Source: Runella defluvii | GTDB lineage: Bacteria; Bacteroidota; Bacteroidia; Cytophagales; Spirosomataceae | Assembly: GCF_014195535.1 (NCBI RefSeq) | Contig: NZ_JACIBY010000001.1 | Location: 561,748-625,747 of the forward strand | DNA: 64,000 bases | Reading direction: 5' to 3' | Shown: piece after piece, positions 711-45,522 of the stretch | Position numbering within the stretch: the first letter of the stretch is position 1 | Layout: each line of letters begins with the position of its first letter | The notes under the pieces: model-generated | What the model was told of the DNA's origin: nothing | Database searches by the model: none | What the model saw: the letters and a program-made list of their open reading frames with translations, nothing else | Position numbers and translations under genes: made by a program

Positions 711-1670
711 ATGGCAATGATAGGAACAGATATTTTAGCAGTAAAAAAACTCCTTGAAGCGGGGGAAGTGGTGGGAATTCCGACCGAAACGGTCTATGGT
801 TTGGCAGGAAATGCGTTGAATGATGACGCTGTTCTTCAAATTTTTAAGGTTAAAAATCGTCCACAATTTGATCCACTGATTGTGCATACTAATTCGTTGG
901 AGAAAGTCAAAACGTTTGTGGCTGATTTCCCACCCAAAGCCCAGCAATTGGCCGAAGCATTCTGGCCTGGGCCATTGACGCTGCTTTTGCCAAAGTCAGA
1001 AGCCATTTCTGATTTGGTAACGTCGGGGTTAGGAACGGTGGCGGTACGTATTCCGAACCATCCTCTGACGCTGGAGTTACTCTCCGAACTTGATTTTCCA
1101 TTGGCAGCACCCAGTGCCAATCCTTTTGGCTACATTAGCCCGACCTCGGCGCAGCACGTTGAGAAACAGTTGGGTAAAAAAATACCTTACATTTTGGATG
1201 GAGGTGCCAGTCAAGTAGGAATTGAATCGACGATTGTGGGTTTTGAAGAAGAAGAAACGGTGGTGTATCGGTTGGGTGGAGCATCGGTAGAGGCCATCGA
1301 AAACGTAGTGGGTCCCGTCCGTTTGGTGGCACATTCAAGTTCCAATCCCAAAGCGCCAGGTATGTTAAAAAGCCATTATTCTCCCCGAAAACCGCTCTTT
1401 ATTAATGCTTTGGAGGAGGTGGTGAAAGCGTATGACGCTCAAAAAGTAGGATATTTGACCTTCAAAAAAACGTCTCCGCTCGTTCCTGCCGAGCACCAGC
1501 GCATTTTATCGTCATCGGGGAGTTATGCTGAGGCGGCCAAGCACCTTTTTGCATACATGCGCCAACTTGATGCACTTGAGGTTGAGGTGATTTGTACTGA
1601 ACTTTTGCCCGAAAAAGATTTAGGCCGAGCCATCAATGATCGTATCCGACGAGCAGCGGTTCGAGAGTGA
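711..1670 (+). CDS. sua5: L-threonylcarbamoyladenylate synthase, two-domain Sua5 type
   Basis: Makes threonylcarbamoyl-AMP from threonine, bicarbonate and ATP, the first step of t6A modification of ANN-decoding tRNAs in the cytoplasm. The YrdC domain covers about residues 8-195, with TVYGLAG, the substrate-binding KNRPQFDPL (K48, R50), GPLTLLLPK, PLAAPSANPFG and the GIESTIV strand. A linker containing APGMLKSHYSPR leads into the small C-terminal Sua5 domain (about 210-319), so this is the two-domain form and of normal length (319 residues). The first codon is ATG at 711; a second in-frame ATG at 717 is equally plausible given the promoter position. No partner t6A genes are nearby. Confidence 0.93.
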   Translation: MAMIGTDILAVKKLLEAGEVVGIPTETVYGLAGNALNDDAVLQIFKVKNRPQFDPLIVHTNSLEKVKTFVADFPPKAQQLAEAFWPGPLTLLLPKSEAISDLVTSGLGTVAVRIPNHPLTLELLSELDFPLAAPSANPFGYISPTSAQHVEKQLGKKIPYILDGGASQVGIESTIVGFEEEETVVYRLGGASVEAIENVVGPVRLVAHSSSNPKAPGMLKSHYSPRKPLFINALEEVVKAYDAQKVGYLTFKKTSPLVPAEHQRILSSSGSYAEAAKHLFAYMRQLDALEVEVICTELLPEKDLGRAINDRIRRAAVRE

Positions 1671-1781
1671 AATGCTTTATTGGACACTTTGTCCCTTTTA
1701 TGAACTTCAAAGTCGGATAATTAAGGCAGTTTTTATAGTGTTACAGTCAAACACTTATTGACTTGTTGTTGTTAGAAAAAC

Positions 1782-2576
1782 ATGGAAACCATTGATTTTG
1801 CCCAGCCCGATATTTTTGCCCAAACGGCTTTCTATATGTTTTTAGGCATTTTTGGGCGTTATGTGCTCATTGCTGCCTTGTTTTACTACTTGTTTAAAGT
1901 AAAATACCAAGCTTATTTTCAGCCAAGAGAAGTCAATTTACGACCTCGTCGTCCCGAACAGCATTGGCGCGAAATTGGCTTTTCGTTTATTACATCGGTT
2001 ATTTTTGCCGTTGTAGGCACGGCCATGGTGGTGCTTTGGCAGAAGGGATATACAAAAATTTATACTGATTTTAGCCAATATTCTATTCTGTGGTTTGTGT
2101 TTAGTATTGGCTTAGTTTTGTTTTTGCATGAAACGTATTACTACTGGCTCCACCGCTGGATGCACCTTCCAAAGGTATATAAATGGGTGCACAAAGCCCA
2201 CCACGATAGCATCACTACCTCCGCGTGGACGTCTTTTTCTTTTCACCCGACAGAGAGTATTTTACAGGCGTTAGTTCTGCCTGCGTTGACGTTTGTGATT
2301 CCCCTGCATTACAGCGCAATTGTGGTTATTTTGCTCATAATGACTACTACGAGCGTTATCAATCACCTGAATACGGAGCTTTATCCGCGCGATTTTCATC
2401 GGCATTGGTTTGGCAAATGGTGGATAGGTGCGACGCACCATAGCCTACACCATTCGCAGTTTAAGTACAACTACGGACTGTATTTTACCTTTTGGGATAA
2501 ATGGGGTAAAACCGAAAGCCCTGATTACGACAAACTTTTTGATAAAAAGACTTCCCAAGTGGGCGAATCAGCTTGA
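1782..2576 (+). CDS. Sterol desaturase / fatty acid hydroxylase family membrane protein
   Basis: A 264-residue integral membrane enzyme of the FA_hydroxylase superfamily, which uses a di-iron centre held by clustered histidines to oxidise lipids. The histidine boxes are clear: HETYYYWLHRWMH near residues 117-129, HKAHHDS near 137-143, and THHSLHHSQF near 218-227. About four transmembrane segments lie before and between the boxes. The substrate cannot be deduced; bacterial members act on sterols, carotenoids, ether lipids or fatty acids. It stands alone between sua5 and a convergent phosphatase gene. Confidence 0.85.
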   Translation: METIDFAQPDIFAQTAFYMFLGIFGRYVLIAALFYYLFKVKYQAYFQPREVNLRPRRPEQHWREIGFSFITSVIFAVVGTAMVVLWQKGYTKIYTDFSQYSILWFVFSIGLVLFLHETYYYWLHRWMHLPKVYKWVHKAHHDSITTSAWTSFSFHPTESILQALVLPALTFVIPLHYSAIVVILLIMTTTSVINHLNTELYPRDFHRHWFGKWWIGATHHSLHHSQFKYNYGLYFTFWDKWGKTESPDYDKLFDKKTSQVGESA

Positions 2577-2656
2577 ACGCATTAAAGCATAGAACTACTA
2601 TTTATGGCTCCAGAGGGCTACATCATAGTAGAATAAAGTGTACGCAATTTTGCAGA

Positions 2657-2764
2657 AAACCACATAGCTCACTTAGATTTTTCACATAGAAGACAAATCT
2701 AAAGTCCTAAGCGGCTGTTATCTCCATTTTCTATGTGTTTATTCTAATGTGATCTATGTGGTTT
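2657..2764. repeat. Imperfect 108-bp palindrome with CTATGTG motifs
   Basis: The arms read AAACCACATAGCTCAC on the left and GTGATCTATGTGGTTT on the right, and the match continues inwards with gaps over about 40 bases per arm, including a second CACATAG/CTATGTG pair. It fills most of the gap between two convergent genes (2577-2866), where nothing else is recognisable. It could be a dispersed non-coding repeat or act as a two-way terminator; it lacks a clean T-tract. Confidence 0.7.
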
Positions 2765-2866
2765 GGAATGAATGCTGATTAATCTTGCATTTATTTGTAC
2801 CCCAAATAGACAGCCTCTTTGTACAAGTCAAGGTTATCTTTGTGTAAACTTTTTGAATCAAGCCCG

Positions 2867-3742
2867 CTATTTTTTACACAAATTTTCGTACACCAACTGG
2901 ATAATTCCATCTTTTAGTCCCAAATCAGGAACGATAATTTCGGAGGCTCCCGCCCACTTCATCACCGAAATGTAGATGTCGGAAGCAGGTACGATGACGT
3001 CCGCGCGGTCGGCGTTAAGGCGAAGTTTATGGACGCGGTCTTCTTGGCTGAAGGAAGCAATGTAGTTGCGCATTCGAGCAAGTTCCTCGACAGACGTAGC
3101 GTTATCGGACGTTTTTGAGACCAAGTTAAAAAGCTTAGAAATGTTGCCGCCTGTTCCTACCGCCTTTACAGGCTCATAGCTGTCCACGTTTTCTTCAATC
3201 CAGCGTTCCATTTTTTGCCAAGCGCCTTTGCTTTCTTTGCCTTCTAGCAGCCGTACTGAACCAATCTTAAAGGACTTAGAAGCCACTTTTTGACGGTTAA
3301 AATACAGGTTTAGCTCCGTACTCCCACCCCCAACGTCGATGTGCAGGTATTGGCCATCTACCAGGGCCTGAACCACCACATTATTGATAAGTTCGGCCTC
3401 TTTGCTGCCGTCGATGATGTGGATTTTTATCCCTGTTTCATGGGCGATGCGTTCAACTACCTCGTGCCCATTGGCCGATTCGCGCATGGCGGAGGTAGCG
3501 CAAGCCATGTATCCTTCCACGTCATGAAGCTCTAGCAACAGCTTGTAACACTTCATGAGTTTGATGGTGCGTTCTTGGCTTTCGGGGGTTAGACTACCGT
3601 ATGTAAACACATCATGCCCCAAGCGGAGTGGAAAGCGGACGTACTCTACCTTTTTGAAACTGGTGTAACCTCCATCTTTCAGAACCGATGAAATTTGCAA
3701 ACGTGCCGCGTTTGAGCCAATATCAATTGCTGCTATTTTCAA
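2867..3742 (-). CDS. Ppx/GppA-family phosphatase, short form
   Basis: Belongs to the exopolyphosphatase / guanosine pentaphosphate phosphatase family of the actin-like ATPase fold. The phosphate-binding loops IDIGSNAARL (about residues 6-15) and DVGGGSTEL (about 140-148) are both present. At 291 residues it contains only the two-lobed Ppx/GppA domain and lacks the C-terminal HD-like region of E. coli Ppx, as is common in Bacteroidota. The start is TTG: the codon at 3742-3740 is the only usable start before an in-frame TAA, and a consensus promoter lies just upstream. Whether it acts on polyphosphate or pppGpp cannot be told from sequence; a RelA/SpoT gene lies at the far end of the window but is not linked. 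Confidence 0.85.
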   Translation of the reverse strand: MKIAAIDIGSNAARLQISSVLKDGGYTSFKKVEYVRFPLRLGHDVFTYGSLTPESQERTIKLMKCYKLLLELHDVEGYMACATSAMRESANGHEVVERIAHETGIKIHIIDGSKEAELINNVVVQALVDGQYLHIDVGGGSTELNLYFNRQKVASKSFKIGSVRLLEGKESKGAWQKMERWIEENVDSYEPVKAVGTGGNISKLFNLVSKTSDNATSVEELARMRNYIASFSQEDRVHKLRLNADRADVIVPASDIYISVMKWAGASEIIVPDLGLKDGIIQLVYENLCKK

Positions 3743-35865: not shown

Positions 35866-36804
35866 TTAGAAAACAAATCCGTTTTCGGCTTCGATTTTAG
35901 TAGGTAAGTTACTCTCTTCCAGCATTTCTTTCAAGTCCCGCTCAATCGTATTGCAAATAGACGTCATTGGAACGTCCGTAATTCGATTTTCAAATGGGTC
36001 TTCGTTGACTTCACCTACCTTACCCATTACCCCAAATACGAACGAAACCAAGATACTCACGGGAATCATCAGCGCAGGAATGCCCATTTTATTGAAGTCG
36101 CCTATTAAAGAAAACGGAAGAATAACCATAAACACCACCATAAATAATTTAGTAAAAAAGTGGTATTGGCGTAAAAGGGGCGTGTTTTTAATGCGTTCAC
36201 AAGCCCCTTGGAAATTGTTGAAGCCTGCTAGTGTAGGTTCGAGACTAATGTTGTCAAATGCCCCTAAAATTTCTGAACGCATTCCTTCTTTGATACGAAT
36301 GCCTTGATTTTGAAGTAAATAGTTGGGCTTGTTAGTTTTTTGGAGGAGGTGTTGGTATTCGTGTTCTGACAATAAGTGCCTGATTTCATCCCACGAATCT
36401 TGACGACGAAGGTGCAAGCGCAGTGCATGGGCAAAGGCAATCTGACGGTACATTAATTCCCTTTTGTAGTCATCGACCTGCTGTGAGGAGGCTTTGCCAA
36501 TCGCGACGGCATTGTCGGCATTGGCGATGATTTGGCGCGCAAAAATGCGGCTATTGTTAATGATACTTCCCCAAAGGGTGCGAGCCTCCCACCAGCGATT
36601 GTAGGAATTGTTGTTGCGAAAAGCCAAAAAAATGGCCAAGGCACTCCCTAAAATAGCCGCGACGGAAAAGGGTAAAACTACTTTTTCGAGGTGCTGATTG
36701 TGGTATAAAAAATAAACAGCGGCGGAGAGGCCTGCCGAGGCAAGCAATTCGGTACGCATGTAACGAGCAACGGCAATAGGGTTAAATACTTTGCGTAGAA
36801 TCAT
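35866..36804 (-). CDS. Bestrophin-family anion channel (copy 1)
   Basis: 312 residues of the bacterial bestrophin (YneE-type) family, pentameric anion channels of the inner membrane. Two N-terminal hydrophobic hairpins (about 20-62 and 205-250) frame the helical body; NNNSYNRWWEARTLWGSIINNSR and YRQIAFAHALRLHLR are the typical conserved segments, and the C-terminus RDLKEMLEESNLP matches that of the second copy at 43642-44652. Substrate ions may be chloride or bicarbonate. The two copies are diverged in the middle. This one pairs with the F420-reductase-like gene. Confidence 0.88.
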   Translation of the reverse strand: MILRKVFNPIAVARYMRTELLASAGLSAAVYFLYHNQHLEKVVLPFSVAAILGSALAIFLAFRNNNSYNRWWEARTLWGSIINNSRIFARQIIANADNAVAIGKASSQQVDDYKRELMYRQIAFAHALRLHLRRQDSWDEIRHLLSEHEYQHLLQKTNKPNYLLQNQGIRIKEGMRSEILGAFDNISLEPTLAGFNNFQGACERIKNTPLLRQYHFFTKLFMVVFMVILPFSLIGDFNKMGIPALMIPVSILVSFVFGVMGKVGEVNEDPFENRITDVPMTSICNTIERDLKEMLEESNLPTKIEAENGFVF

Positions 36805-41374: not shown

Positions 41375-42481
41375 TTAAAACACAATGACTCCTTTGGCAT
41401 TCACACCCGCGTGCATGTCAGCAAATGCCTGCGACAAATCGCTGAGTGGGTAGGTGCGGGTGACCATTTTATCCAAAATCAAAGCACCTTTAGCGTAGAG
41501 GTCTTGCAAAATGGGGAAGTCAATTTGTGGACGAGTCTTGCCGTACAACGGGTTGATATATACTTTATCCCATTCAAATAAATTCATATCAATCACAATC
41601 TCCTGCTCTATGCCGCTGACCTGAACGGCCATCCCCGCATTTCGAACCATCGCCAACGGTGCTGCTCCCAATTCTGGAATGGCGGTACATTCAAACGCAT
41701 AATCGGCACCGCGCCCGTCGGTCATGGTTTTAACTACTTTGGACGCATTCACCAAGCCTTTGTCGGTTTTTTCGGCCAAAACCGTGTGCGTGGCGCCGTA
41801 TTCTTTGGCCATTTCGAGGCGCAAAGGATTAATATCGACGGCAATGATTTTGCCTGCTCCTGCGATGCGTGCGCCTTGGATGACGTTCAGACCCACGCCG
41901 CCCGTACCCAATACTACCACCGATGTGCCTGGTTTTACCTTGGCGGCATTGACCACTGAACCATAGCCTGTCATCACGCCACAGCCGACAATCGCCGCAG
42001 AGCTGAAAGGCATCTCAACGTGCATTTTGACGCACGCGGCCTCACGCACAAGGGTGTATTCGGACATGGTACCGAGGCTAAAGGCACGTTCAATCGGCAC
42101 ATCGTTGTAGGTGGTTGAACTGAAAGTTGCATGGCCTTCGCTTAGTCTATTTCCCGCCGTGACTGCCGAGTTACGTTCGCAAATGTGTTGGTTTCCTTCT
42201 TGGCATTGAAAACATTCGTAGCAGGGAATCGCCCAATTGAGCATTACTTTGTCACCCACTTGTAGCGATTTTACGCGATTCCCTACTTTTTTTACGATAC
42301 CAGCCCCTTCGTGCCCCATTACCAGCGGCTTCCCCCACGACTGCGAATCCCAATCGGTATGGCATACCCCTGCGGCCTTGATTTCTACCAAGACTTCATC
42401 GCCTTGCGGGGCGGCTACGGTGATATTTTGAATGGAAAAATGGCCGTTGCCATCGGCAACGGCGGCTTTGGATTGTAACAT
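41375..42481 (-). CDS. Zinc-dependent alcohol dehydrogenase, class III-like
   Basis: 368 residues of the medium-chain dehydrogenase family. Catalytic zinc ligands appear in GVCHTDWD (Cys, with Thr/Asp relay) and VMGHEGAG (His, Glu) and a later VGCGVMTG (Cys). The structural zinc site is CYECFQCQEGNQHIC. The NAD-binding loop is VVLGTGGVGLNVIQGARIAGAG with acceptor Asp in IIAVDINP. The overall pattern is like glutathione-dependent formaldehyde dehydrogenase (FrmA/AdhC), though the substrate is not certain. It lies 40 bases downstream of the HopJ gene in the bestrophin/LCIB operon. Confidence 0.88.
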   Translation of the reverse strand: MLQSKAAVADGNGHFSIQNITVAAPQGDEVLVEIKAAGVCHTDWDSQSWGKPLVMGHEGAGIVKKVGNRVKSLQVGDKVMLNWAIPCYECFQCQEGNQHICERNSAVTAGNRLSEGHATFSSTTYNDVPIERAFSLGTMSEYTLVREAACVKMHVEMPFSSAAIVGCGVMTGYGSVVNAAKVKPGTSVVVLGTGGVGLNVIQGARIAGAGKIIAVDINPLRLEMAKEYGATHTVLAEKTDKGLVNASKVVKTMTDGRGADYAFECTAIPELGAAPLAMVRNAGMAVQVSGIEQEIVIDMNLFEWDKVYINPLYGKTRPQIDFPILQDLYAKGALILDKMVTRTYPLSDLSQAFADMHAGVNAKGVIVF

Positions 42482-42521: not shown

Positions 42522-42848
42522 TTAGTTCGCTTTCAATGCTTCACCTTCAAACTGAATGCCGTCCCAACCGTACTTGATAAAGTTGCGGATGTTTTGGTGG
42601 TCGGTGCCATCGGGGTTGCCGAGGACGTCTTTGTTGTAAAAATCACCAAAGCAGTGGAGGGTATCTTGTTGGCTTAAACCTAATAATTTGGCAAAAGAAA
42701 ATACTTTGCACGAACCTGAGTTTTGCCCCACGGCATTGTAGGTGTCTCCGTTCTTGAATGCCGTAGGGGTAAACTCAAAATTTGCCTCAATGTGGGCAAT
42801 CACTTCTTGAAAACTAACTTCGTTGGCTTTAATTTGATCTAAAATCAT
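42522..42848 (-). CDS. HopJ type III effector-family protein
   Basis: 108 residues, full length for the family, which was named from a Pseudomonas effector but is found widely in free-living bacteria without type III secretion, including aquatic ones. The conserved stretches are NSGSCKVFSFAKLLGLSQ and CFGDFYNKDVLGNPDGTDHQ followed by NIRNFIKYGWDGIQFEG. There is no signal peptide. The biochemical role is unknown. It is 28 bases downstream of the LCIB-type carbonic anhydrase, inside a five-gene minus-strand operon. Confidence 0.88.
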   Translation of the reverse strand: MILDQIKANEVSFQEVIAHIEANFEFTPTAFKNGDTYNAVGQNSGSCKVFSFAKLLGLSQQDTLHCFGDFYNKDVLGNPDGTDHQNIRNFIKYGWDGIQFEGEALKAN

Positions 42849-42876: not shown

Positions 42877-43623
42877 TTATACGGTCAGCAATTCCATCAA
42901 ATCACGTTTTTGACCCGATTCTAAGTTGATTAACTCAAAGCGTTTGGCGGAGGTATAAGACCCCATGTCAGTATCACTGTTGATAAGAACTGCCCCCATT
43001 AAAATCACGTATTTGCAGTTGTAGGTAGTTTTTGAAACCAATTCGCAAATGCGAGCGTCGATGGCTTCATAAATCACTTCGGTTGCCTCAAATAGTGGCG
43101 TTTTAGCGGAGAGAATCCGCTCTTTTTGTTTGAGTAATATCTGTTCAAGGGTATTCATTTGGTAATCTAAATCAGTGACATTCCCTTCCACAATTTGGTC
43201 GTTCATTAATTTGGCCAACGCTCCCTTCGCAGCTCCGCAGCAGCCGCTATTTTTGTGCTGACCAAAACGGTGAATTTCTCCAATAGTTCCCGTTTTAGTG
43301 ATTCCGATGTGCGGGCCGTAGTAGATAAACACCGCGCCATCGTCGGGAACGTGGCTGGCAAAAGCGCCCATGCCCGTCAGTCCCGTAAAAGGAAACCCGT
43401 CTAGGCCACCCATTTTGAAGGGGCCGAGCAGTTCTTTCGTACGAGCAGGATATTGAATACTGTTGACGTCGTCGCTACAAACGCTGTCGGCAAGCATTAC
43501 TTGTTCGGGTTCGAGGTCAAGGTGTTCTTCAATAAAATCAATAAAACGATTGACACTGTCGATGGTCGTAATGGCATTAGGATACCACTGACGGATGATT
43601 TTTAATTTTTCTTTCTTGAGCAT
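42877..43623 (-). CDS. LCIB-type carbonic anhydrase-like protein
   Basis: 248 residues. The core resembles the LCIB/LCIC carbonic anhydrase domain of algae: DSVCSDDVN (Cys49, Asp51), FKMGGLDGFPFTGLTGMGAF (69-88), SHVPDDG (His91), IYYGPHIGI (His105) and NSGCCGAAKGAL (Cys128/129). These supply the Cys, His, Cys zinc set used by beta-type enzymes, with Asp51 as the catalytic acid candidate; the Arg partner of that Asp is not at its usual place. The expected reaction is CO2 hydration. Its gene lies 18 bases after a bestrophin gene, reproducing the algal LCIB-bestrophin partnership. I recognise the family from motifs only. Confidence 0.75.
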   Translation of the reverse strand: MLKKEKLKIIRQWYPNAITTIDSVNRFIDFIEEHLDLEPEQVMLADSVCSDDVNSIQYPARTKELLGPFKMGGLDGFPFTGLTGMGAFASHVPDDGAVFIYYGPHIGITKTGTIGEIHRFGQHKNSGCCGAAKGALAKLMNDQIVEGNVTDLDYQMNTLEQILLKQKERILSAKTPLFEATEVIYEAIDARICELVSKTTYNCKYVILMGAVLINSDTDMGSYTSAKRFELINLESGQKRDLMELLTV

Positions 43624-43641
43624 GATTTTTGAGAATTTGGG

Positions 43642-44652
43642 TTATAAAACAATGTTATTTTGGGGTTGAATGGCGGGTGGAAGGTCAGTTTCTCCGAGCA
43701 TTTCTCGCATGTCAATTTCGATGGTTCGGCTCATTTGTGAAATCGGAACGTCGTTAGGACTTCCTTCAAATGGGTTTTCGGTGCTTTCACCCACTTGGTC
43801 GAGCGTGGTGTACATCCAGCAAATCAGAATACTAAACGGCACCACAAACCAAATCATGTGTCCTTGCAAGACGCCCGAAATGGTTTCATTGAGTTTGTCA
43901 AAATCTTTGAGCATTCCGTAGGGGAGGAGAATGCAAAAAATCCGAATAAAAACGGTGTTGATGGTCGCAAACTGACGCGGATAGGGGAAGTTTTTGATGC
44001 GTTCGCTGCGGCCTTGCTGGTCGTACAAATCCTTGATGGCGCGTTGCATTTCAACAAATTGAATGCTGTCGATTTGGTGGTTGCGGTACAACTCCTTGAT
44101 GGTTTTGCTTTGTAAGCTCAGCAGTTGAGCCGCCTTGTTTTTGGTACCCATAATATACGAAAGCTCGTCTTTCGAAAGGTATTTTTCCAATTCGCTTTCC
44201 AACGAGCTTTGTTTTTCAGGAACAGAATAATATTTGTCTTGGTACTCGAGGTTGTGCTGAAGCGACTGTGCTTCCCACGAGCGGCCATCGCGCATGGCAT
44301 AGCGCAAGGCGGTTAGCCACGCAAAATGCCGATAAACCAGTTGTTTAGATTGTTGAGGATTGTCCAAAAAATCGCGTGCCATAACGCCCCACGCGCGGCT
44401 ACTGTTGAGAATACTACCCCAAATTTGCCGTGCCTCCCAGGTTCGGTTGTAGGTTTGGGTATTCTTAAAGCCCACAATGAAGGCCGTGGCAGTACCTAAC
44501 AAGGCGACTACCGTCCAAGGTACGGCCAGCCATTGCAAGTTTACATATTCGTACAAAAGCACAGGTATGACGCTCAGAATGACGAATTTGAGGATGTTTT
44601 TTCGAGTCCAGATGAGAAGTTCGGCGGTTGAATATCTTTTTCCTGCGTGCAT
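43642..44652 (-). CDS. Bestrophin-family anion channel (copy 2)
   Basis: 336 residues, 24 longer than copy 1. It has the N-terminal hydrophobic pair (about 20-60), NTQTYNRTWEARQIWGSILNSSRAW, YRHFAWLTALRYAMR, a second hydrophobic pair (about 230-275) and the C-terminal EIDMREMLGETDLPPAIQ. Bestrophins are pentameric anion channels; in algae thylakoid members carry bicarbonate and associate with LCIB. This gene heads the operon with the LCIB-type gene directly behind it, so a bicarbonate or CO2-related role is a reasonable inference. ATG start at 44652, no signal peptide needed. Confidence 0.88.
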   Translation of the reverse strand: MHAGKRYSTAELLIWTRKNILKFVILSVIPVLLYEYVNLQWLAVPWTVVALLGTATAFIVGFKNTQTYNRTWEARQIWGSILNSSRAWGVMARDFLDNPQQSKQLVYRHFAWLTALRYAMRDGRSWEAQSLQHNLEYQDKYYSVPEKQSSLESELEKYLSKDELSYIMGTKNKAAQLLSLQSKTIKELYRNHQIDSIQFVEMQRAIKDLYDQQGRSERIKNFPYPRQFATINTVFIRIFCILLPYGMLKDFDKLNETISGVLQGHMIWFVVPFSILICWMYTTLDQVGESTENPFEGSPNDVPISQMSRTIEIDMREMLGETDLPPAIQPQNNIVL

Positions 44653-44826: not shown

Positions 44827-45522
44827 ATGAAGAAAATTTTACTGGTAGTTTTTACAGGATTTGTTCCGTTGTTTACCCTTGCTCAACATTACACCCACGT
44901 AGGCTCGTGGTCGCGGTTGGCGCTAAGTGCAAAACTAACCCCCAAACTAGGCGTAATGGCTGAAGTAGGAATGCGCCGTCAAAATAGCCTCATTCATCTC
45001 AATCCGATTGAAAAACCGCAGACCAACAACGTTAAATTAACCCTGACTTATTCCCTCAAACGTCTCAACTTAATCTTATCTCCCGCTGAAAATATTTACT
45101 CGGAGGCATTGTTAGGAAAAGAAACGGACTCAACTATCCCACGGGTGCACGAGTTTCGGGTATCGGGTGGGGTTGAATACCTAAAGCCTGCGCTTAAACG
45201 CCGTTTTCAGATTCGTAGCATTTATGAATACCGCAATTTTGATGGTTTCAAACGGGGAAGGCTCCGTACACGGGTGATGAATCGGTGGACGATAAGCCCT
45301 GCTAATACACTGAGCTTGTACGATGAGTTTTTTGTAAATACCCACCCTCATCCCCAGCCCAATTGGTTTAACCAAAATCGACTGTCTTGTACCTATACCC
45401 GCTCATTGACCCGTTTTTTAGACCTAGAGCTTGGTTACATTTATGTCCTGTCCGAACGCCCCACGCTGTCCGAATTTGACCATACCCATGCGCTGATTAC
45501 GTACCTTACTGTTAAGATTTGA
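44827..45522 (+). CDS. DUF2490 outer-membrane beta-barrel-like protein
   Basis: 231 residues with a signal peptide (about 1-19, ending TLAQ). The mature protein is a series of alternating beta strands with aromatic ends (GSWSRLALSAKLTPKLGVMAE, LSYTYSLKRL-like repeats, LDLELGYIYVL) and finishes LITYLTVKI, consistent with a small outer-membrane barrel of the DUF2490 family, whose function is unknown. It has its own promoter and faces away from the bestrophin operon. No partner genes are evident. Confidence 0.8.
   Translation: MKKILLVVFTGFVPLFTLAQHYTHVGSWSRLALSAKLTPKLGVMAEVGMRRQNSLIHLNPIEKPQTNNVKLTLTYSLKRLNLILSPAENIYSEALLGKETDSTIPRVHEFRVSGGVEYLKPALKRRFQIRSIYEYRNFDGFKRGRLRTRVMNRWTISPANTLSLYDEFFVNTHPHPQPNWFNQNRLSCTYTRSLTRFLDLELGYIYVLSERPTLSEFDHTHALITYLTVKI

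Follow-up and report, generated by a model that had tools for sequence, protein, structure and literature searches.

Locus and Protein Families

The window under study comprised 64,000 nucleotides of the Runella defluvii genome (contig NZ_JACIBY010000001.1, positions 561,748 to 625,747 of the forward strand), and the element in question was a pair of genes on its minus strand. The first gene encoded a bestrophin-family channel, and the second encoded a homologue of the LCIB-type carbonic anhydrases (CAs). The two were separated by 18 bases, and the positions given for them in an earlier, sequence-only reading of the same DNA were verified. The LCIB/LCIC motifs named in that reading (Cys49-x-Asp51, FKMGGLDGFPFTG, GPHIGI and NSGCCG) were all present in the product of the second gene. 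The gap and the common strand suggest that both genes lie in one transcription unit. A divergently oriented DUF2490 gene started at 44827; hence, the bestrophin gene was regarded as the first gene of the run. The 8.0 Mb host genome contained one PF18599 gene and three PF25539 genes, from which a chance adjacency was estimated at about one in a thousand. The nearest named LCIB locus among the loci fetched was that of Runella limosa, with a 99% identical LCIB protein. No match was found in the plasmid records.

The family and the fold of the second protein were evaluated with profiles and structural models. The 248-residue protein matched the PF18599 profile (LCIB_C_CA) with 260.5 bits against a cut-off of 25, and residues 19-232 were aligned to positions 2-222 of the 223 profile positions. 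The protein model had the LCIB-type beta-CA fold. PtLCIB4 (5b5y) and an LCIB_C_CA protein (6kfs) were 25-29% identical to it; the former is titled an LCIB homologue and the latter a protein related to the CO2-concentrating mechanism, whereas the present protein is encoded in a probable bacterial operon. In an alignment of 58 LCIBs (A1), Cys49, Asp51, His91, His105, Arg119 and Cys129 were invariant (58/58), and Cys128, which is beside Cys129, was replaced by Ser in nine sequences. Cys49, His105 and Cys129 presumably act as zinc ligands, following the beta-CA pattern, and Arg119 is predicted to pair with Asp51, as in beta-CAs. The residues of a predicted Cys-His-Cys zinc site and of an Asp/Arg pair are thus in place, with the ligand numbering based on the alignment. 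The membership in the LCIB family and the conserved zinc-site residues that the earlier reading had assumed were borne out at the level of sequence. No signal peptide was apparent by eye, and the enzyme is taken to be cytoplasmic.

The first protein matched PF25539 (Bestrophin_2) with 149.4 bits against a cut-off of 27, and no match to PF01062 was found at E values up to 1. The Klebsiella bestrophin KpBest was matched by phmmer (3.8e-22). The AF2 model of the Runella bestrophin had a predicted local distance difference test (pLDDT) value of 96.8, and Foldseek placed it on KpBest (4wd7/4wd8) with TMt values of 0.87-0.93 among the matches listed. Hence, the upstream gene was a bestrophin, as had been proposed, and shared its fold with KpBest at 21-22% identity (Foldseek). 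NCBIfam contained no family for either protein.

Adjacency of the Two Genes in Bacteroidota

The earlier reading had put forward a survey of bacterial genomes for the same adjacency. The surveys made here covered Bacteroidota. Genome-contig loci were fetched with the LCIB protein, and 80 of the 94 confirmed ones were kept, a set that favours close relatives. The adjacency was recurrent: a bestrophin gene was directly beside the LCIB gene on the same strand at 43 of the 80 loci, upstream at 37 and downstream at six. The gap was 2-84 bases in 37 of the 43 pairs and 223 bases in one, and the genes overlapped in five; the overlaps of -56, -53 and -17 bases arose from open reading frames (ORFs) begun at the first possible start codon. 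In the combined set of 110 loci, bestrophin was the commonest neighbour cluster of LCIB (46 loci), and the next cluster had 16. The pairing was found in 11 families according to the record labels (Spirosomataceae, Cyclobacteriaceae, Flammeovirgaceae, Flavobacteriaceae, Weeksellaceae, Sphingobacteriaceae, Saprospiraceae, Chitinophagaceae, Leadbetterellaceae, Cytophagaceae and Kapaibacteriaceae). It was also found under two unverified labels of metagenome-assembled genomes, Limnohabitans (L051) and Chthonomonas (L076). Chance adjacency was rejected, given both gene orders and the many families.

A divergent LCIB was followed by a bestrophin with an Ile-Phe-Phe (IFF) neck at L117 (L156, G594). 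The gene 3' of this bestrophin was of the histidine-kinase type and had a domain resembling a cyclic-nucleotide-binding domain just under the cut-off.

Alternation between Two Carbonic Anhydrase Families

The neighbourhood was then viewed from the side of the channel. The bestrophin was searched through 395 genomes of the phylum and 345 of the class, which were overlapping samples, and neighbours were read at 134 loci. The 134 window-like bestrophins were the matches with loci given or fetched, mostly the best-scoring ones. CAs were their commonest neighbours. A CA gene was beside 22 of the 134 (8 LCIB and 14 beta-CA), whereas the 40 comparison bestrophins, taken from the top of a profile ranking and not clade-matched, included one with a CA neighbour (Fisher 0.03). 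L220 and L291 entered the LCIB-adjacent count once their over-long ORFs had been read by eye. The beta-CA family PF00484 was verified in the three neighbours checked, and the CxDSR motif was read in the sequence. At L180 (G140, 1495-3098), counted as beta-CA-adjacent, the gene of a bestrophin with a Thr-Phe-Phe (TFF) neck contained a single in-frame stop codon, and the beta-CA encoded after it belonged to another subtype than those at the other loci.

The bestrophin clade of the window had a support of 95 and consisted of 74 leaves. Among its 42 sampled members, 17 had a CA neighbour (10 beta-CA and 7 LCIB), six had an exchanger and 19 had neither; these counts include survey loci only and were unaffected by duplicate rows. 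The comparison of 17/42 with the controls gave a Fisher p value of 2.5e-5, and all p values serve as guides only because the loci are related. On a 222-leaf FastTree bestrophin tree, the presence of a CA neighbour changed 23 times or more, and at least seven switches between LCIB and beta-CA were counted among the partnered bestrophins. L291 was omitted from the tree because of its short ORF, and L001, L083 and L085 were omitted as copies of L167, L168 and L171. Furthermore, LCIBs that were 69-77% identical to that of the window were paired with bestrophins 34 to 73% identical to that of the window. That the channel was paired again and again with one reaction, and not with one protein, was the strongest argument for CO2/bicarbonate chemistry as the common function.

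Residues of the Pore Neck

The ion selectivity of the channel was explored through the three residues of the pore neck. KpBest is a Na+ channel with an Ile-Ile-Phe neck, its I66F substitution favours Cl-, and the F80I substitution in human BEST1 lowers Cl- permeability, as stated in a passage of PMC8496536. The Runella bestrophin differed from KpBest in having a Thr-Phe-Phe neck. Its middle residue, Phe58, at the position of residue 80 in human BEST1 and residue 66 in KpBest, was of the anion type, and the channel is predicted to be anion-selective. In the first LCIB-adjacent set, the middle residue was Phe in 48 of 48 bestrophins (47 distinct), of which 39 had a TFF neck and nine an IFF neck. 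The comparison bestrophins of that set had Phe in 2 of 24, and an LCIB gene lay some 5 kb away from each of these two. In the larger tree alignment, the 49 distinct LCIB-adjacent bestrophins (52 rows, with L026 = L197, L016 = L216 and L059 = L114 as copies) all had Phe, as did 14 of 15 beta-CA-adjacent ones and none of the 40 controls, whose necks were taken from the alignment. Phe was also present in all eight labelled exchanger-adjacent bestrophins, including one on the opposite strand, and in all leaves of the window's own clade. The position was placed in the alignment for 132 of 133 window-like bestrophins, and 123 had Phe.

A second bestrophin lay in the window about 6 kb away (35866-36804, minus strand). 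Its neck was Ser-Ile-Phe, with a middle residue of the cation type, and the sequence queries used between 33001 and 39500 gave no match for LCIB, beta-CA, an exchanger or a K+-channel-like protein. The two PF25539 bestrophins of the host genome other than the paired one, this gene included, had FMF and SIF necks.

Neighbouring and Inorganic-Carbon Genes

Ion transporters recurred around the pair. In 13 of the 46 loci with an LCIB-bestrophin pair, a K+-channel-like protein was encoded 5' of the bestrophin; Ion_trans_2 (PF07885) was found in this cluster at L029, L083 and L085, with the K+-type filter sequences TSIGYGD (L083) and TSIGFGD (L085). Of the 134 window-like bestrophins, eight had a Na+/H+ exchanger gene within 200 bases on their own strand. 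The exchanger family PF00999 was verified at L045 and L203; the genes at L203 formed a row of exchanger, bestrophin and LCIB, and the exchanger came after the LCIB-bestrophin pair at L039, L042 and L045. Genes of bicarbonate uptake were also encountered: one bestrophin (L193) started 94 bases after an ORF matching the second half of the SbtA profile, and at three of 22 loci of the non-Bacteroidia family f24 (L096, L099 and L106), LCIB was divergent from SbtA and an SbtB-like PII protein, with PF05982 in L096.

The divergent LCIB genes at L115 and L123 adjoined genes for GTP cyclohydrolase I (PF01227), and LCIB at L123 also adjoined a gene that matched the Fur family (PF01475) weakly. These neighbours hint that LCIBs are perhaps metal-regulated.

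The host genome encoded phosphoenolpyruvate (PEP) carboxylase and contained a cluster in the order SulP, beta-CA, SulP, beta-CA (L155), with PF00916 in both transporters. LCIB as the sole CA of the genome was rejected because of the two PF00484 genes. The single RuBisCO-family gene (G000:C21:74468-75301, L341) adjoined a kinase-type gene (PF07005/PF17042) and a SusD-like gene, the latter read from its sequence. The sugar-acid-kinase-type neighbour and the KPSIG motif suggest a RuBisCO-like protein, apparently one of sugar catabolism. A rhodopsin search gave no match, and its control likewise failed to match, so that absence was not shown.

The genes downstream of the pair are included in Table 1. 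The HopJ-family gene is possibly co-transcribed with the LCIB gene, and the alcohol dehydrogenase gene is probably outside the bestrophin-LCIB unit. HopJ as a conserved partner was rejected, since the HopJ neighbour cluster occurred only at L001 and L002 among the 110 loci; these Runella limosa-like loci were also the only ones with HopJ directly 3' of LCIB. It seems to be an ordinary chromosomal gene, of a family named after a plant-pathogen effector.

Table 1. Positions of the paired genes, their key codons and the downstream genes in the window.
Feature	Position	Strand	Remark
Bestrophin-family channel gene, first of pair	43642..44652	-	336 amino acids, ATG start, PF25539 match
LCIB-type carbonic anhydrase homologue gene, second of pair	42877..43623	-	248 amino acids, ATG start
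Thr54 codon, first neck residue (Ile in KpBest and animals)	44491..44493	-	From alignments
Phe58 codon, middle neck residue (KpBest Ile66, human BEST1 Phe80)	44479..44481	-	From alignments
Phe62 codon, third neck residue	44467..44469	-	Phe in 62/62 of alignment A2
Cys49 codon, predicted zinc ligand, Asp51 two residues on	43477..43479	-	58/58 in A1
His105 codon, predicted zinc ligand	43309..43311	-	58/58 in A1
Arg119 codon, predicted partner of Asp51	43267..43269	-	58/58 in A1
Cys129 codon, predicted zinc ligand	43237..43239	-	58/58 in A1
HopJ-family gene (PF08888)	42522..42848	-	28 bases 3' of LCIB gene
Zinc-type alcohol dehydrogenase gene	41375..42481	-	40 bases beyond HopJ gene

Proposed Mechanism and Alternatives

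The bestrophin and the LCIB homologue probably form one bicarbonate-handling unit, in which predicted CO2 hydration would be followed by predicted passage of bicarbonate across the inner membrane, most likely outward. We infer catalysis by the enzyme, bicarbonate as the cargo, physical contact between the two proteins and the direction of the flux. The enzyme, on the cytoplasmic side, would convert CO2 from respiration or from the medium into bicarbonate and a proton. The open bestrophin would let the bicarbonate leave across the inner membrane, and the proton would stay inside. The membrane potential is inside-negative by about 100 mV or more. A passive anion at equilibrium would be about fifty times more dilute inside, and therefore bicarbonate would leave through the open channel. 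Respiratory CO2 would be vented as bicarbonate and the cytoplasm would be acidified, which may be useful at alkaline pH. K+ flux would balance the charge, Na+/H+ exchangers would share the task of pH control, and the separate SulP/beta-CA cluster of the host genome would handle uptake. The Na+/H+ exchangers and K+-channel-like proteins in some clusters fit this venting and acidification model, as counter-ion carriers and components of pH control.

The broader proposal is that a widespread branch of bacterial bestrophins consists of bicarbonate channels and not of KpBest-like Na+ channels, forming units with any CA at hand (LCIB or beta), with Na+/H+ exchangers and with K+ channels, as a pH/CO2 vent that arose independently of the algal partners. 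We regard the chances of this proposal as evenly balanced.

Several observations weigh against the proposed unit, in addition to the composition of the comparison set described above. A directly adjacent bestrophin was lacking at 37 of the 80 fetched LCIB loci. The phylum survey, which was less biased (35 LCIB matches, 30 with loci examined), gave a bestrophin neighbour at 3 of 30 loci and none at 27; the family f24 contributed 27 of the 35 matches, with a bestrophin neighbour at none of its 22 examined loci. In the order survey, likewise less biased, the neighbour was found at 3 of 21 loci and lacking at 18, and the genomes G182 and G206 had LCIB but no close window-like bestrophin. No LCIB-bestrophin fusion was found among the best 120 of 4697 matches to a joined query, which were all bestrophins of 335-347 amino acids with PF25539 alone; distant fusions could rank lower. 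From the side of the channel, 104 of the 133 sampled window-like bestrophins on the tree had no CA or exchanger neighbour, and two five-member neighbour clusters at the 134 loci consisted of unrelated-looking proteins with no evident link to inorganic carbon. The identities of LCIB and bestrophin within pairs were weakly correlated (Spearman 0.27). Of 145 bestrophins with no labelled partner, 94 also had the middle-neck Phe; hence, it marks a wider clade and is unspecific for CA pairing. One control (L307), with an IIF neck and thus Ile in the middle, adjoined a beta-CA. Finally, three of six purified LCIB homologues had no CA activity, the Chlamydomonas ones among them by residue numbers, according to a review (PMC5876011).

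The direction of the flux is the weakest step, and an inward role, when the membrane is depolarised or bicarbonate is high, is the main rival. The channel would then admit bicarbonate and LCIB would balance CO2 and bicarbonate for carboxylases such as PEP carboxylase, as a miniature CO2-concentrating device in a heterotroph. The algal BST1-3 are proposed to carry bicarbonate towards a CO2-using site, in a passage of PMC6708349. PEP carboxylase is encoded in the host genome, and LCIB is divergent from an SbtA/SbtB-type uptake pair at three loci. However, anions would flow outward through a passive channel when the membrane is inside-negative, and two SulP-family transporters and two beta-CAs are already present in the host genome; we consider the inward version unlikely. 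Bicarbonate uptake for the anaplerotic balance suggested in the sequence-only reading appears less likely than export for the same electrical reason. The cargo may also be another ion, Cl- or Na+, with the cluster serving salt, turgor or membrane potential and the CA merely buffering pH. The exchangers and the K+-channel-like protein in some clusters agree with this, as does the Na+ conduction of KpBest (in the same passage of PMC8496536), but the Phe at the position that bears on selectivity speaks against Na+, and CAs outnumber exchangers as neighbours in the window's clade. Another ion as the main cargo is quite unlikely.

Alternatively, LCIB may be a non-enzymatic subunit that responds to CO2 or bicarbonate and gates the bestrophin. 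The inactive purified homologues (PMC5876011) are in line with such a subunit, and Chlamydomonas LCIB/LCIC nonetheless interact with BST1/BST3, as a passage of PMC6708349 states. In contrast, bestrophins of the same clade have ordinary beta-CAs in the position of LCIB, indicating that the reaction matters rather than a special LCIB surface, and the six predicted active-site residues are invariant. This makes a gating subunit decidedly improbable. An accidental adjacency, or a hitch-hiking block inherited by descent, could draw on the mutual relatedness of the fetched LCIB loci and on those without an adjacent bestrophin. Both gene orders, the similar LCIBs beside bestrophins of different subclades and the repeated replacement of LCIB by the other CA family leave it very little room.

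The bicarbonate-handling unit also bears on the remaining claim of the sequence-only reading, which had seen in the pair an ancient functional partnership outside phototrophy. A channel-plus-CA unit outside phototrophy is likely; the one RuBisCO-family gene looks RuBisCO-like. Its ancient, vertically kept character was not upheld: the partners swap among the sampled bacteria, identities within pairs are mixed and most LCIBs outside the window's clade, in the phylum survey, had no bestrophin neighbour, so that a stable inherited bacterial pair is disfavoured.

Relation to Known Systems and Implications

The passage of PMC6708349 describes an interaction of Chlamydomonas BST1 and BST3 with LCIB/LCIC and a proposed recapture cycle. 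BST1-3 with LCIB/LCIC likewise combine a bestrophin-family anion channel with an LCIB-family protein acting on inorganic carbon, and both families of the algal partnership were present in Runella as adjacent genes. The algal pair is located at the thylakoid membrane and supplies RuBisCO, whereas the Runella genes form a pair in a bacterium that is probably heterotrophic. Moreover, unlike in Chlamydomonas, the channel is of the Bestrophin_2 (PF25539) type and the enzyme is interchangeable with beta-CA. The resemblance looks parallel rather than demonstrably inherited, judging by a tree without algal sequences.

The SulP-beta-CA clusters, one of which is in the host genome, likewise place a membrane protein for bicarbonate beside a CA. 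SulP proteins are secondary transporters, whereas a bestrophin is a passive channel, and thus the flux is likely opposite to that of the SulP clusters. DAB complexes also join a CA-like protein to a membrane protein in the handling of inorganic carbon, but DabB is antiporter-like and ion-coupled and is not a bestrophin. Both protein families of the Runella pair are known. A bacterial partnership of a bestrophin with a CA or with LCIB, its interchangeable enzyme and its pore signature were not found described in the titles and abstract openings of the papers listed in searches of the open-licence PubMed Central literature.

Among bacterial bestrophins, the member covered by the review PMC8496536, KpBest, conducts Na+. 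The partnership with CAs of two families, together with the anion-type pore residue, gives these channels a concrete candidate role, namely the passage of bicarbonate. The bacterial pair may also serve as a model for the algal bestrophin-LCIB partnership. Furthermore, the findings suggest that bacteria control their pH in part by hydrating CO2 and exporting the bicarbonate passively.

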